From contig NZ_JBEGII010000001.1 of the NCBI RefSeq assembly GCF_040675875.1, positions 434,001 through 498,000 on the forward strand: a stretch of 64,000 nucleotides of DNA, given 5' to 3'. The notes under the pieces are model-generated. The model was given only the letters and a program-made list of their open reading frames with translations, searched no databases and had not been told where the DNA came from. The position numbers and the translations under genes were made by a program. This document shows, piece by piece, positions 29,985 to 35,791 of this stretch. The stretch is from Microbacterium sp. LWO12-1.2 (GTDB lineage Bacteria; Actinomycetota; Actinomycetes; Actinomycetales; Microbacteriaceae). Position 1 is the first letter of the stretch. Every line of letters starts with the position of its first letter.

Positions 29985-32153
29985 ATGTCGGTAGGGGTGA
30001 GGCAGAGTGTGGGCATGGCCTCCACTGCTCCGTCCGACACCCGCGAGGGCGACACCCGAGGAGCCGCACTCGCCGCGCTGCGCGAACTCGTCGGTCGTCC
30101 CGATGCCGATTTCCATGACGGGCAGTACGAGGCGATCGAGGCGCTGGTCGCCGGGAGGCGCCGGGCGCTCGTGGTGCAGCGCACCGGATGGGGCAAGTCG
30201 GCGGTGTACTTCGTCGCCACCCTGCTGCTGCGGCGCCAGGGGGCTGGGCCTACCGTGCTGGTCTCGCCGCTGCTGGCGCTCATGCGCGACCAGATCTCGG
30301 CGGCCGAACGCGCCGGCGTACGCGCGGTCGCGATCAACTCCACGAACGCCCATGACTGGAGCGATGTGCTGGCGCGCCTCGATCGCGACGAGGTCGACGT
30401 GCTGCTGGTCTCTCCCGAGCGCCTGAACAACCCGTCCTTCCGTGAGGAACAGCTGCCGGCGCTCGTCCGCCGCATCGGCATGCTGGTCGTCGACGAGGCG
30501 CACTGCATCAGCGACTGGGGCCACGACTTCCGTCCCGACTACCGGCGGCTGCGCGACCTGATCGCGCAGATGCCGGCCGATGTGCCGGTGCTCGCGACGA
30601 CGGCGACCGCGAACAGCCGCGTCGTGGCCGATGTCGCGGAGCAACTGGACAGCCTGCACGGTGGCGGCGGGGCAGGAGCGGCCGAGGTGCTCACGATCCG
30701 CGGCCCGCTCGCCCGTACCTCGCTGCGTCTGGGTGTGCTGCGGCTGCGCGACTCGGCGAGTCGGCTCGCCTGGTTGCTCAGTCATCTCGACGACCTGCCC
30801 GGCTCCGGCATCATCTACACGCTGACCGTCGCTGCCGCCGTCGACACCGCGAGGTTGCTCCGCGAGCACGGCCACGATGTCCGTGCCTACACGGGGCAGA
30901 CCGACACCGACGAGCGCGCCGAGTCCGAGGGGATGCTGAAGCGCAACGAGGTCAAGGCGCTCGTCGCGACCAGCGCCCTCGGCATGGGGTTCGACAAGCC
31001 CGATCTCGGGTTCGTGCTGCACCTGGGCGCACCGTCGTCTCCCGTCGCCTACTACCAGCAGGTCGGACGCGCCGGCCGTGCCAGCGAGAGCGCCGACGTG
31101 CTGCTCCTCCCCGGCGTGGAGGATCGCGACATCTGGCACTACTTCGCGACCGCGTCGATGCCAGACCGGGAGCGTGCCGAGCGAGTCATCGCCGCGCTCG
31201 GCGACGCCCCGATCTCGACACCGGCGCTCGAAGCCATGGTCGACATCCGGCGCACACCGCTCGAGTTGCTGCTGAAGGTGCTCGACGTCGACGGCGCCGT
31301 GCGAAGGGTGCAGGGCGGGTGGGTCGCCACGGGCGAGCCCTGGGTCTACGACGCCGAGCGCTACGAGCGCATCGCGGCCGAGCGCGTCGCCGAGCAGCAG
31401 CACATGCTCGACTACGAGCAGACCGAGGGGTGCCGGATGGAGTTCCTGCAACGCTCACTCGACGACGAGACCGCGGCGCCGTGCGGTCGCTGCGACAACT
31501 GCGCCGGCGGATGGTTCCCCCGCGAGATCGGTGCGGCGGCGACCACCCAGGCGTCGGAGTCGCTCGACCGGGTCGGTGTGCCGATCGAGCCGCGTCGGGC
31601 CTGGCCGACCGGTGCCGATCGCCTCGACGTGCCGGTGCGTGGTCGTATCGCGCCCGACGAGCAGGCGGGCGAGGGCAGAGCGCTCGCCCGCCTCACGGAC
31701 CTCGGTTGGGGAGGCGCGCTGCGCGAGATCTTCGCGGCGGGCACTCCGGATGCCCCGGTGTCGCCGCAACTGCTCGCCGCCTGCGTCCGCGTGCTCGCCG
31801 GGTGGAAGTGGGAACAGCGCCCTGTGGCCGTGATCGCGATGCCGTCGCGATCGCATCCGCAGCTCGTGGACTCGCTCGCCCGCGGTCTCGCCGAGGTAGG
31901 GCGGCTGCCGTACCTCGGCGCGCTCGAACCCACGGGTGGCGGCCCGAGCGGTCAGCCCGGCGGCAACAGCGTGTTCCGACTCGCGGGCCTCTGGGATCGA
32001 CTGAGTGCAGAGCACCTCGACGTTCCTCCGGGACCCGTGCTGCTCATCGACGACCTGGTCGACAGCCGGTGGACCGTGACGGTCGCGGCACGCACGCTCC
32101 GTCGGGCGGGCGCGACCGAGGTGCTGCCCTTCACCCTCGCTCTGCGCGGCTGA
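29985..32153 (+). CDS. RecQ-family DNA helicase fused to a C-terminal phosphoribosyltransferase-like domain
   Basis: This is a 722-aa protein. Residues ~30-350 are a RecQ-type SF2 helicase: Walker A RTGWGKSAVYF, DEAH box VVDEAHCISDWGHDFRPDYRRL, and motif VI QQVGRAGRASESADV. A RecQ zinc-binding module follows (CRMEFLQRSL...CGRCDNCAGGW, about 485-510). There is no HRDC domain; instead the last ~160 residues end in a PRPP-binding-type motif VLLIDDLVDSRWTVTVAART (about 684). It probably unwinds recombination or replication intermediates; the role of the PRT-like part is unknown. ATG 29985 has GGTGGAG upstream; ATG 30015 is an alternative. Its last 17 bases, including the stop, are repeated at 34237-34253. 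Confidence 0.9.
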   Translation: MSVGVRQSVGMASTAPSDTREGDTRGAALAALRELVGRPDADFHDGQYEAIEALVAGRRRALVVQRTGWGKSAVYFVATLLLRRQGAGPTVLVSPLLALMRDQISAAERAGVRAVAINSTNAHDWSDVLARLDRDEVDVLLVSPERLNNPSFREEQLPALVRRIGMLVVDEAHCISDWGHDFRPDYRRLRDLIAQMPADVPVLATTATANSRVVADVAEQLDSLHGGGGAGAAEVLTIRGPLARTSLRLGVLRLRDSASRLAWLLSHLDDLPGSGIIYTLTVAAAVDTARLLREHGHDVRAYTGQTDTDERAESEGMLKRNEVKALVATSALGMGFDKPDLGFVLHLGAPSSPVAYYQQVGRAGRASESADVLLLPGVEDRDIWHYFATASMPDRERAERVIAALGDAPISTPALEAMVDIRRTPLELLLKVLDVDGAVRRVQGGWVATGEPWVYDAERYERIAAERVAEQQHMLDYEQTEGCRMEFLQRSLDDETAAPCGRCDNCAGGWFPREIGAAATTQASESLDRVGVPIEPRRAWPTGADRLDVPVRGRIAPDEQAGEGRALARLTDLGWGGALREIFAAGTPDAPVSPQLLAACVRVLAGWKWEQRPVAVIAMPSRSHPQLVDSLARGLAEVGRLPYLGALEPTGGGPSGQPGGNSVFRLAGLWDRLSAEHLDVPPGPVLLIDDLVDSRWTVTVAARTLRRAGATEVLPFTLALRG
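32137..32153. repeat. Left 17-bp direct repeat of the restriction-modification island (recQ 3' end)
   Basis: TCGCTCTGCGCGGCTGA covers the last codons and stop of the recQ fusion gene. An identical copy occurs exactly 2100 bp downstream, bracketing the two-gene restriction-modification insert. Confidence 0.85.
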
Positions 32154-32172
32154 AGGGCAGCACCGCCGCAGG

Positions 32173-33021
32173 TCAGAGCAGACCGCGCAGCTGCGCAGCT
32201 TCCTTCATATTGCTACGGAACGAGCCGAGCGTCGCCAAGGTATACATGCCATCGATCTCGTCGGCGGCCCAGAGATCGTGGATGCGACGAAGGTCGGCGA
32301 TTCGTGACTTCCATCCGATTCCATCGATCACGGCCATGACGAATTGGTTCGGCTTTCGGATCGCGGCCATCTCCTGAATCTCGCGCACTGCGTCGGTCAA
32401 CTTCGAGCCGGTCGAGTCGAAGCCTTTTGCTGCCACAACAATCTTGGCGTCGGTCGTGTCCGGGACGACGAGATCGCACGGCGCGGTCGAGCCGTTTCGA
32501 CCCGTGAACCGGGTTCGCGTTTGGTACGGCAACCCTAGACTCTCGGCGATCGCCTCAATCTCGTCTTCAACCTTCCGCCCGGACACGCCCGCCCGGGTAG
32601 CAGTAGCGCGTGTGCCCGCGCGAGCGATAAGGATGTCCCCGAAGTCGTAGGTCTTCAACCGCTGAGTCTCTAGGGCCGCAATCAGGTCGAACTCCGTGTC
32701 GAACCAGTCGACGAGCTCAGGGCCACGGGTGCGTGCGAGAGTTGTCCAACCGCTGGAGTCGAAGCGGTTGCGTAGAACGTTCTTCAGTCGCTCCCTGCTG
32801 AGCCCTACCGTCAGGCCAAGAACGGGCACCCACGTCGGGTGCGCCTCAATCCATGCGGTGATTGCTTCGGCACTCAGCTCATCGGCTGGAATCTCGCTCA
32901 AGGAGCGTGAAGCAAGCTTTATGGCCGCAGACTCGGCGGTTACCGCCGTTGGATCTACGTGCGGCGTCAACTGGCCGAGAGAAAGCACGTACTCCTCGAA
33001 CGACGGGACGGGGGCCGGCAT
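32173..33021 (-). CDS. Probable type II restriction endonuclease of the island
   Basis: This is a 282-aa protein directly after the methyltransferase (TGATG overlap). The C-terminal half contains TAPCDLVVPDTTDAKIVVAA followed by KGFDSTGSKLTD, which looks like a variant PD-(D/E)xK core (D...A-x-K) with the GSKLTD loop seen in DpnII/MboI-like enzymes. The N-terminal half (about 1-150) is helical and probably reads DNA. With the adjacent adenine methyltransferase it forms a type II system that would cut unmethylated foreign DNA. The recognition sequence cannot be read from the protein. Codon use is visibly more AT-rich than in flanking genes, supporting recent transfer. Confidence 0.75.
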   Translation of the reverse strand: MPAPVPSFEEYVLSLGQLTPHVDPTAVTAESAAIKLASRSLSEIPADELSAEAITAWIEAHPTWVPVLGLTVGLSRERLKNVLRNRFDSSGWTTLARTRGPELVDWFDTEFDLIAALETQRLKTYDFGDILIARAGTRATATRAGVSGRKVEDEIEAIAESLGLPYQTRTRFTGRNGSTAPCDLVVPDTTDAKIVVAAKGFDSTGSKLTDAVREIQEMAAIRKPNQFVMAVIDGIGWKSRIADLRRIHDLWAADEIDGMYTLATLGSFRSNMKEAAQLRGLL

Positions 33022-34127
33022 CAGTCACGTCCGACGAAGATGTACTCGGACGCTGACCGCCTGGTAGCAGCAGCGTGCGTGCCGAAGGAATACTTGTGAT
33101 CGATTGCTTGCACCTCGACATGCGGCTTGACCTCGCGCAGGAGTTCGGTGATGCGCTCAGGTCCGGGCAGCGCGTTGGAACCGTAGCTCATGACTATTGC
33201 ACCCGCGTCGGAGAATTTCTCGAAGGTGCGCATGAGCGCATCCTCGACGGTTCTCTTGTAGGCGAATGGGGTAAACCTCTTTGCGATCTTCTGCGTCTTG
33301 GTGTGGGCCATGATCTCCACTCCACGCCAATAGACGCTGAGTCCTTCGAGGAAGTGGTATCGCTTCATGTAGTCCGTGTCGTCACGCGGCGGGGCGTATG
33401 GCGGATCGAGGTACGCGATGTCCGGAGTTTGGACATCGAGCTCGAACACGTCTCCGGTCACTGCGCGGTTCGAGGTACCCATGTCGAAGACCGTGGCGTT
33501 GTACTCGGCGACTCGTTCGCGAAAGTGCTCGGCCATTGAGAGCTGAAGATCGCGCCGTCCATCCACATAGCGAGTGCCGACGTATGAGAAAACCCCTCTG
33601 GGCTGCTTGCGCGCCGCGGAGAGAATCAGCGCGGAGATCGCGATATCCCTTTGGTACCCATCGAGCAGATCGATGTGTGACCAGGCCGAGTCGAGGAAAT
33701 TCAGGTCCTCGCGATTGAAGAAGATGCCCGAAAAGGTTCGCTGAATGAAGTCTCGATCATCCGCTGCGGGGCCACAGATCTTGTCGACGAGGTCGAGGCC
33801 GAGTCGCTGCTGTGAGTTCTCCGTCGTCGCACGCGCCACCGTCGAAGAAAACGCCATGAAGTCGTTGGAAGTAGTGCTGAAGCCCTGTGCCTTAAGGAGA
33901 TAGCTCACAACACCGGACCCGGAGAAAGCATCGACCGCGGTTGCGCCACCCACTGCGGCAAACGTTCTCTCGAGATGGGGCAGCAAAGCCCACTTCGATC
34001 CCATGTATCGCATGCGTGGGTACTGCTGGGCGCGAGCAAGAACGTCTGCCGTCGTCGCGTTTCGCCTGGTCGGCCGCCGGCCTGAGTCCGTCAGAGCAAA
34101 GGCGGTGGAGACTGTACGGGTCGGCAT
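33021..34127 (-). CDS. Type II N6-adenine DNA methyltransferase (D12/Dam class)
   Basis: This is a 368-aa methyltransferase with SAM motif I in TAVDAFSGSGVVSYLLKAQG (about residue 63) and catalytic motif IV in DIAYLDPPYAPPRDDTDYM (about 238), in the D12 alpha-class order. It starts with RMRYMGSKWALLPHLE, the usual motif X region (MGSK). It methylates adenine in a site shared with the downstream nuclease. An ACTGTAC/GTACAGT inverted repeat brackets the start codon (34111-34136), suggesting autoregulation. Base composition is lower in G+C than neighbouring genes. The ATG at 34127 has little Shine-Dalgarno, so the message may be nearly leaderless. Confidence 0.87.
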   Translation of the reverse strand: MPTRTVSTAFALTDSGRRPTRRNATTADVLARAQQYPRMRYMGSKWALLPHLERTFAAVGGATAVDAFSGSGVVSYLLKAQGFSTTSNDFMAFSSTVARATTENSQQRLGLDLVDKICGPAADDRDFIQRTFSGIFFNREDLNFLDSAWSHIDLLDGYQRDIAISALILSAARKQPRGVFSYVGTRYVDGRRDLQLSMAEHFRERVAEYNATVFDMGTSNRAVTGDVFELDVQTPDIAYLDPPYAPPRDDTDYMKRYHFLEGLSVYWRGVEIMAHTKTQKIAKRFTPFAYKRTVEDALMRTFEKFSDAGAIVMSYGSNALPGPERITELLREVKPHVEVQAIDHKYSFGTHAAATRRSASEYIFVGRD

Positions 34128-34136
34128 GGGTACAGT
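34111..34136. promoter_or_regulatory. Inverted repeat over the methyltransferase start (possible operator)
   Basis: ACTGTAC (34111-34117) and GTACAGT (34130-34136) are perfect inverted arms separated by 12 bases containing the methyltransferase start codon. No separate controller gene is present, so binding by the methyltransferase's own N-terminus is a possibility. Confidence 0.5.
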
Positions 34137-34267
34137 TTGCCAGCCCCCTCGGACACTCGAGTGGCGGCGCGCTCGTCATCGAACCACATCGGCTTTCCGG
34201 TGTCGCACGGTTCCCTCACCGCCTGCGTCCGCACGATCGCTCTGCGCGGCTGAGGTACTCCGGGACC
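34137..34267. other. Right junction of the island, with the second 17-bp direct repeat at 34237-34253
   Basis: This non-coding stretch lies between the methyltransferase start and the paaK stop. It contains TCGCTCTGCGCGGCTGA (34237-34253), identical to the end of the recQ fusion gene. The sequence before the repeat does not match recQ, so only the 17 bases are duplicated. No integrase or transposase is present. Confidence 0.75.
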
Positions 34268-35566
34268 TCAGCGCAGGTCGTAGACGCGCTTGTACTTGCC
34301 CTCGCTGCGCGGCAGGGCTCCCGGTTCCTCCAGGTGCACGTCGACGGTCGTGCCGATGTGCACCTTGATGCGCTGCTGCAGCACGGCGGCCGCAGCCTCG
34401 CACACGGAGCGGTCGAGCTGCGGATGCCGTTCGATGCGCACGGTCATCGAGTCCATCCGGCCCTCGCGGCGCAGCTCCAGCACGAAGTGAGGCGTCAGCG
34501 TCTCGATCCCCATCACGAGCTCCTCGATCTGCGTCGGGAACAGGTTCACTCCGCGGAGGATGATCATGTCATCGTTGCGCCCCGTGATCTTCTCGATCCG
34601 CCGCGCGGCCGGGAAGGTCGTACCGGGGAGAAGGCGGGTGAGGTCGCGTGTGCGGTAGCGGATCACGGGGAACGCCTCCTTCGTGAGCGAGGTGAAGACG
34701 AGCTCCCCGAGTTCGCCGTCGCCCACGGGATCACCCGAGTCGGCGTCGATCGTCTCCGGGAGGAAGTGGTCCTCCCACACGTGCGGGCCGTCCGTGGTGA
34801 GCACGCTCTCGCTCGCCACACCCGGCCCCATCACCTCGCTGAGCCCGTAGATGTCGACCGCGTCGAGGTCCATCCGTCGCTCGATCTCGCGGCGCATCTC
34901 GTTCGTCCAGGGTTCTGCGCCGAGCACCGCGATGCGCAGCGAGGTCGAGCGCGGGTCCACGCCCGCCTCCTCCAGGGCATCGGCGATCGTCAGCAGATAG
35001 CTCGGGGTGCACAGGATCGCATCCGGCTCGAAGTCGCAGATCATCTGCACCTGGCGCGCGGTCTGTCCGCCCGACATCGGGATCACGGTCGCGCCGAGCC
35101 GTTCGATCCCCGCGTGCGCGCCGAGACCTCCCGTGAACAGGCCGTAGCCGTAGGCGTTGTGCACGCGCATGCCCGGACGGATGCCGGCGGCGTGGAGCGA
35201 ACGGGCGACGAGGTCGGCCCAGCGGTCGAGGTCCCCCTGCGTGTAGGCCACGACGGTCGGTCGTCCGGTGGTGCCCGATGACGCGTGCACGCGCCGCACA
35301 TCCTCCATCGGAACCGCGACCATGCCGAACGGATACGTCTCGCGCAGATCCGCCTTGGTCGTGAAGGGCAACAGGCGGATATCGTTGAGCGTGCGGATGT
35401 CGTCGGGGGTGACGCCGTGCTCCGTGAAGCGACGGTGGTAGTGCGGCACGTTCTCGTACGCGTGGCGCACGGTCCACTGCAGGCGGCGGAGCTGGAGCTC
35501 TTCGAGTTCCGGACGCGAGTGCAGCACGGATTCGCCGGCACCGGTCAGCAGTTCGATCGTCGTCAT
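34268..35566 (-). CDS. paaK: Phenylacetate-CoA ligase
   Basis: This is a 432-aa AMP-forming ligase of the PaaK branch. Motifs are the P-loop RVHASSGTTGRPTVVAYT (about residue 95), DIYGLSEVMGPGVASE (about 236), the RYRTRDLTRLLPGT hinge region, and RRIEKITGRNDDMIILRGVN with the C-terminal catalytic lysine region SEGKYKRVYDLR. It activates phenylacetate to phenylacetyl-CoA, the first step and source of the PaaR inducer. ATG 35566 is supported by AAGGAG 7 bases upstream. It is a separate transcription unit, flanked by the restriction-modification island downstream and a divergent aldehyde dehydrogenase upstream. Confidence 0.95.
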   Translation of the reverse strand: MTTIELLTGAGESVLHSRPELEELQLRRLQWTVRHAYENVPHYHRRFTEHGVTPDDIRTLNDIRLLPFTTKADLRETYPFGMVAVPMEDVRRVHASSGTTGRPTVVAYTQGDLDRWADLVARSLHAAGIRPGMRVHNAYGYGLFTGGLGAHAGIERLGATVIPMSGGQTARQVQMICDFEPDAILCTPSYLLTIADALEEAGVDPRSTSLRIAVLGAEPWTNEMRREIERRMDLDAVDIYGLSEVMGPGVASESVLTTDGPHVWEDHFLPETIDADSGDPVGDGELGELVFTSLTKEAFPVIRYRTRDLTRLLPGTTFPAARRIEKITGRNDDMIILRGVNLFPTQIEELVMGIETLTPHFVLELRREGRMDSMTVRIERHPQLDRSVCEAAAAVLQQRIKVHIGTTVDVHLEEPGALPRSEGKYKRVYDLR

Positions 35567-35791
35567 CGTGACTCCTTCATCACTTCTCCCGGCCCGCGGC
35601 GGTGCGGGCACAGGACCGTTCATCGTCATCTCATCAATCCCTCAGCGGCCCCGGTCCGCGGCGTGCGTACGAGCCTGTGCGCCACGCGCACGATGGCCTG
35701 ATTCCGACGCCGGCGCTCTGTACGCATCGCCGACGGCGCTCCTAGGCTCCGAACAACCGGACAGAGCGGTCCGCGGAATGAGGAGGATGCT

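Follow-up and report, generated by a model that had tools for sequence, protein, structure and literature searches.

A restriction-modification unit between 17-bp direct repeats at the recQ 3' end of Microbacterium sp. LWO12-1.2

We analyzed a 64,000-nucleotide stretch of the Microbacterium sp. LWO12-1.2 genome (contig NZ_JBEGII010000001.1, positions 434,001 to 498,000; hereafter the window, whose coordinates are used throughout). Here, a recQ-like helicase gene and a paaK-like gene are separated by a 2083-bp unit holding two genes, R and M, of a predicted restriction-modification (R-M) system, and the unit is flanked by a 17-bp direct repeat. We found that this island is an insertion with a 17-bp duplication and not a segment lost in relatives, because an empty site in the relative G184 matches its flanks in register and M was found in only 3 of 366 genus genomes, its own included. 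Our preferred explanation, to which we assign a probability of roughly 0.6, is that a mobile R-M unit entered the recQ end and duplicated 17 bp in a target-duplicating insertion of the R-M type, for which we infer capture at a staggered break. The movement of two-gene defence systems without a recombinase is not settled. In this study, one R-M family provided two insertions with empty sites, one with a 17-bp and the other with a 73-bp duplication, as well as a likely third insertion; the idea of capture at breaks is therefore testable by junction comparison and transfer assays.

The repeat pair and its empty site

The 17-mer TCGCTCTGCGCGGCTGA was present in two exact copies on the same strand, at 32137-32153 and 34237-34253. 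The left copy constitutes the final 17 bp of the recQ-like gene, as had been proposed in an initial annotation of this DNA. The repeat was exactly 17 bp long, with different outer bases on both sides. In the window, no third copy was detected even when up to three mismatches were allowed, and the whole 4.1-Mb genome contained two exact copies, one more with one mismatch and eight with two mismatches. As a control, 5000 displaced flank pairs were taken from the window at the same spacing, leaving out the repeat region itself; none shared 17 exact bases, and the longest shared run was 14.

The RecQ protein of G184 was 95% identical to that of the window. In this relative (L011/L111), recQ and paaK were convergent neighbors with stop codons 14 bp apart and no island between them, and the 17-mer occurred once in the 9-kb stretch examined (L111). 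Upon comparison of the window with L111, 443 of the 500 positions that end with the left copy matched in the recQ flank, and 472 of the 500 that begin with the right copy matched in the paaK flank; just inside the copies, agreement was limited to 13 of 30 and 11 of 30 positions. A relative with a single 17-bp copy and no island, for which the initial annotation had suggested looking, thus exists, and its view that the insertion had kept the recQ end was borne out.

The enclosed genes had also been described as more AT-rich, and the composition agreed with this. The GC contents of R and M were 0.616 and 0.594, compared with 0.717 for recQ and 0.681 for paaK, and the corresponding values at third codon positions (GC3) were 0.735 and 0.721 versus 0.873 and 0.888. 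R and M were the only genes between the two copies as judged from open reading frames and Pfam, and the unit contained no recombinase, integrase or insertion sequence (IS), consistent with the earlier statement that no integrase is present. The bare unit ends showed no terminal inverted repeats, with 30-, 60- and 100-bp ends scoring no better than shuffled sequence.

The R-M family at other loci and the recQ end in relatives

A set of 85 R-M loci was assembled from 77 loci of a genome scan, L118, L119, L105-L109 and the window; it counts a few places twice, found by two tools (L105/L145, L106/L154, L108/L204 and L109/L208). R and M were adjacent in 82 of the 85 loci (three had no M), and 80 had enough flank for comparison (two were too short). 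The longest exact direct repeats in the 300-bp flanks were 24 bp in L196, 20 bp in L197 and 17 bp in the window, and those of the other 77 loci were 13 bp or shorter. When mismatches were tolerated in the 500-bp flanks of 75 loci, the scores were 50.5 for L196, 45 for L197, 26 for L150, 21.5 for L214 and 17 for the window, with a median of 11. Among 1535 displaced pairs taken from these loci, 11 reached 17, 4 reached 26 and 1 reached 45.

L196 (M. icosiumassiliensis) and L197 (M. heraklionensis) both belong to Mycolicibacter, and we counted them as one event because they were 91% identical over 3 kb. In L196, the unit was flanked by a 73-bp repeat. The flanks met over a single 73-bp copy in the relative G794 (L229), where the two BLAST matches overlapped by exactly 73 bp. 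Identity between the flanks of L196 and G794 was seen in 361 of 400 aligned columns on one side and 359 of 412 on the other, compared with 7 of 30 and 9 of 30 inside. The Mycolicibacter site is a convergent gene pair encoding a small protein without a Pfam match and a luciferase-like monooxygenase, and both genes were kept whole because their ends overlap the duplicated 73 bp. This locus is a second target-duplicating insertion of the same R-M family, with its own empty site.

In L150, from an uncultured Arachnia, the R side of the unit faces yajQ (PF04461), and a 46-bp stretch on the far side, before M, shared 36 of its 46 positions with the 3' end of yajQ. This match scored 26, a value reached by none of 1500 control segments (maximum 15). 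The best match of the stretch lay at the yajQ end in 14 of 19 relatives, with scores of 12.5 to 27.5, and elsewhere in the other five. No clean empty site was found for L150; the 46-bp stretch is probably a decayed target duplication of the yajQ end. As a separate observation, a repeated element of approximately 170 bp lies between R and yajQ (L150:4760-4932), with copies of 91-94% identity elsewhere in the genome, on different contigs, and of approximately 90% in two relatives, and it looks like a small mobile repeat. Elsewhere, the unit of G008 (L118:4984-7163) lies between an SRAP gene (Pfam) and a tRNA-like gene with a terminator hairpin, and G013 provides an empty site in which the matches of the two neighbors are 36 bp apart. 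At the G729 locus (L119), we observed no flanking direct repeat of at least 11 bp and recognized no empty site among 38 genomes.

We also examined the region downstream of recQ across the genus. Matches to the window RecQ at an E-value of 1e-100 or better were obtained in 145 of 295 genus genomes, and the downstream region was inspected in 70 of the 144 other RecQ-bearing genomes, in some for a short distance only. A convergent paaK followed recQ in 19 of these 70 relatives. In eight of them it lay within 50 bp, which agrees with the earlier view that the island breaks into the paa cluster between recQ and paaK, and in 11 it lay farther away, with 225 to 6704 bp between match ends. In three of the longer gaps (225, 279 and 537 bp), no gene was named. 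The gap of L065 contained a pair encoding HepT and a nucleotidyltransferase with a helix-turn-helix motif (Pfam; L065:432-1281), that of L076 an AIPR protein that matched the AbiU model in PADLOC (548-2200), that of L045 an alpha/beta hydrolase and a WYL regulator, and that of L113 genes that appear transporter-like from their sequence.

Repeats of the recQ end were sought in 15 relatives, comprising the 11 with a long gap, three with a short gap and one (L064) without a convergent paaK. None of the 15 had a same-strand repeat of 12 bp or more drawn from the terminal 100 bp of recQ. We therefore see no sign that the recQ end serves as a shared integration core, and no reuse of this end was observed. 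The recQ-paaK gap itself tolerates cargo, some of it defence-like, and may be a small tolerant spot for such genes.

Insertion mechanism and alternative explanations

Positions 32120-32133 of recQ recur in perfect inverted form at the left junction, where the 14-bp arm consists of the TGA of the left copy and the 11 bp with which the unit begins. A 14-bp stem with a loop of 3 to 40 was present at none of 600 random window points, where the maximum was 10. The corresponding RNA hairpin was calculated at -41.9 kcal/mol (z -3.6), and that of the other strand at -46.1 kcal/mol (z -5.0); the smaller spacer hairpin of the empty site is located at the right end in the window. The 11-bp match counts only by its position at the junction, because 290 of 1000 random 19-mers matched somewhere in recQ equally well. 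The recQ allele of G237 lengthened the inverted match from 11 to 15 bp, which carries little weight given the comparison of several alleles. We also considered whether a long stretch of recQ had been duplicated, with an internal deletion in the right copy. The sequence before the right 17-mer does resemble the recQ interior (14 exact bases), but 53 of 300 control segments scored equally high, and this possibility was rejected. The 11 bp beside the left copy may be either snap-back filler copied from recQ or a terminator selected between recQ and R. Snap-back filler is possible because LigD of B. subtilis forms snap-back structures and a mycobacterial polymerase domain stabilizes such structures on 16-nt 3' overhangs, according to the accessible part of PMC13201618.

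In the course of events that we prefer, the R-M unit (R and M, 2083 bp, no recombinase) entered the recQ end, 14 bp from the stop codon of the convergent paaK, and 17 bp of the target were duplicated, so that recQ stayed whole. Its capture, for which Ku-type end joining is the probable route, would have taken place where the two strands had been cut 17 nt apart, and filling in of the staggered ends around the captured DNA would have produced the direct repeat. The 11-bp junction sequence would be either a copy of recQ made by snap-back synthesis or a terminator selected later. The duplicated sequences of the three loci (17, 73 and ~46 bp) share nothing clear, since 57, 43 and 39 of 500 shuffles equaled their pair scores on the better strand. 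The inner unit ends were likewise unmatched between events, with 126 to 500 of 500 shuffles scoring equally. The variable length, the lack of a shared sequence and of terminal inverted repeats, and the lack of a recombinase argue for a duplication set by the break, and against a fixed core or a single transposase. Ku was present in the genome itself and in all eight further genomes asked, compared with 1 of 14 control genomes, which makes end joining possible and is no proof of it. We put forward only tentatively the broader idea that this actinobacterial R-M family spreads without a recombinase through end-joining capture at staggered breaks, at convergent gene ends. The duplication length would then record the stagger, and the 11-bp filler would be a snap-back fossil of LigD/Ku-type repair.

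Several observations weigh against capture at a staggered break. Exact repeats longer than 13 bp were lacking at 77 of the 80 R-M loci, and a duplication together with an empty site was seen only in the window and in the Mycolicibacter event. The unit of G008 has an empty site in G013 and nevertheless no flanking repeat of at least 11 bp. In a screen of 75 loci, the scores of the window (17) and of L150 (26) are not proof by themselves; because they would not stand out, the window case rests on its empty site and the L150 case on the yajQ register. The presence of Ku in all nine genomes asked does not discriminate, and the inverted repeat may be a selected terminator. Furthermore, the incoming DNA may already have held a 17-bp match, and 17 bp is well short of the duplications on the order of 100 bp mentioned in the accessible part of PMC3874152.

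The primary papers on R-M insertion with long target duplication are reportedly those of Nobusato (2000) and Furuta (2010), as cited in PMC3031569, PMC3874152, PMC1643837 and PMC4978471. In its accessible part, PMC3874152 distinguishes two kinds of R-M insertion, one accompanied by a short target duplication and imperfect terminal inverted repeats and the other by a long, variable target duplication. R-M insertions with target duplication are stated or cited in the accessible parts of PMC3031569 and, for Helicobacter, of PMC1643837, PMC3154945 and PMC4978471, and other R-M insertions, with replaced segments, in that of PMC4615327. No title on R-M insertions of this kind in actinobacteria was met in the literature listings, which have partial coverage and give weak evidence of absence. 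The window resembles the long-duplication class in that an R-M unit without a recombinase is present or absent between relatives, and in that the flanking direct repeats vary in length between events and have only one copy in the empty site. It differs in that both cases with empty sites are actinobacterial and lie at convergent gene ends, and in the extra inverted repeat at one junction of the window. It works like the long-duplication class, as a short variant and not a full member, because its 17 bp is below the length given for that class and because it lacks the imperfect terminal inverted repeats of the short-duplication class.

Four other explanations were compared with capture at a break. 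The possibility that the repeat arose by chance next to an old island, with relatives having lost that island, has nothing in its favor beyond the shortness of 17 bp, and we consider its probability negligible. It is refuted by the empty site, which is in exact register on both sides, and it is at odds with the displaced pairs, with the occurrence of just two exact copies in the genome and with the rarity of M in the genus. Transposition by a DNA transposase acting in trans is very unlikely in our judgment. A 17-bp target duplication would be its classical trace, and the short-duplication R-M units offer a parallel; however, the unit has no terminal inverted repeats, in which it also differs from DNA transposons and composite IS elements, and neither the duplication length nor the unit ends are conserved between events.

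The initial annotation had read the island as a site-specific or recombination-mediated insertion, perhaps a non-autonomous one using an outside recombinase. In the form considered here, a non-autonomous element would use the 17-bp recQ 3' end as its attachment (att) core for an outside tyrosine recombinase. Integrative elements at gene 3' ends use a tyrosine recombinase, and the geometry in the window fits such an element, in that recQ regains its end and the displaced sequence comes to lie beyond the insert; the genome also has three tyrosine-recombinase domain matches elsewhere. Nonetheless, we regard this explanation as unlikely. An integrase is absent from the unit, family members showed no core that they clearly have in common, the recQ end was directly repeated by at least 12 bp in none of the 15 relatives, and the R-M relatives occupy other sites, either with duplications that differ in length and lack a clearly shared sequence or with no duplication. 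Islands without repeats, which had been named as evidence that would count against the insertion, are the rule at the R-M loci; they speak against a fixed att site and leave target duplication intact. Rather unlikely, too, is homology-assisted entry, in which the incoming DNA held a short stretch resembling the end of recQ (a related recQ locus being one conceivable source) and a crossover placed the unit. The inverted 15-bp match of the left end to the G237 allele and a recQ-like stretch before the right copy are consistent with it. However, the recQ likeness at the right end is at chance level (53 of 300 controls), the four extra inverted bases are weak evidence, and target duplication alone accounts for both copies.

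Features of the region and the R and M proteins

The features are listed in Table 1. M matched PF02086 (D12 class) at 5e-16. R reached no Pfam or NCBIfam model, and sequence searches of the PDB returned no match, at E-value limits of 1 for R and 0.001 for M. The closest solved folds to R were restriction enzymes, in accordance with a restriction-endonuclease fold, and some R relatives carry the name DpnII family. Structure matches of R outside the restriction enzymes, to Can2/Cdn1 and Rab GTPases, were judged to reflect a common arrangement and were set aside. R and M are thus predicted to form a type II R-M system, in which a D12 adenine methyltransferase stands beside a restriction-fold partner. 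R was found in 6 of 398 family genomes, its own included, and the phage relatives of M amounted to two records, with 37% as the best.

Table 1. Coordinates of features at the insertion (window positions)
Feature	Position	Strand	Remark
recQ-like helicase gene, left neighbor of the insertion	29985-32153	+	Pfam DEAD, Helicase_C, RecQ_Zn_bind
Left arm of the 14-bp perfect inverted repeat, within recQ	32120-32133	+	
Left 17-bp direct-repeat copy (3' end of recQ, including the stop codon)	32137-32153	+	Single copy in empty-site stretch L111
Right arm of the 14-bp inverted repeat (repeat-derived TGA and first 11 bp of the unit)	32151-32164	+	
Inserted unit, 2083 bp, between the copies	32154-34236		Absent from the empty site
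R, predicted type II restriction endonuclease, 282 aa	32173-33021	-	Names of relatives, closest solved folds
M, D12-class N6-adenine DNA methyltransferase, 368 aa, 1-bp overlap with R start	33021-34127	-	
109-bp stretch from M start to right repeat	34128-34236		
Right 17-bp direct-repeat copy, with the original 14-bp spacer of recQ and paaK after it	34237-34253	+	
Original spacer hairpin between convergent recQ and paaK (8-bp stem), overlapping the right copy	34249-34272	+	Also present in empty site L111
paaK (phenylacetate-CoA ligase-like), right neighbor	34268-35629	-	

The system is similar to DpnII-like and Dam-like type II R-M systems in its adjacent R and D12 adenine methyltransferase, but differs in that R reaches no family model and has an invariant AAK. 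In particular, R residues 196-201 and 203-208 (the VAAKGF-STGSKL core) were invariant across 32 aligned sequences, and the alanines of the AAK stand where DpnII-like enzymes presumably have a catalytic acidic residue. The catalytic layout of R may be unusual. In the RecQ-like protein, a C-terminal extension weakly resembled a ribose-phosphate diphosphokinase model over residues 684-713, at a score far under the cut-off.

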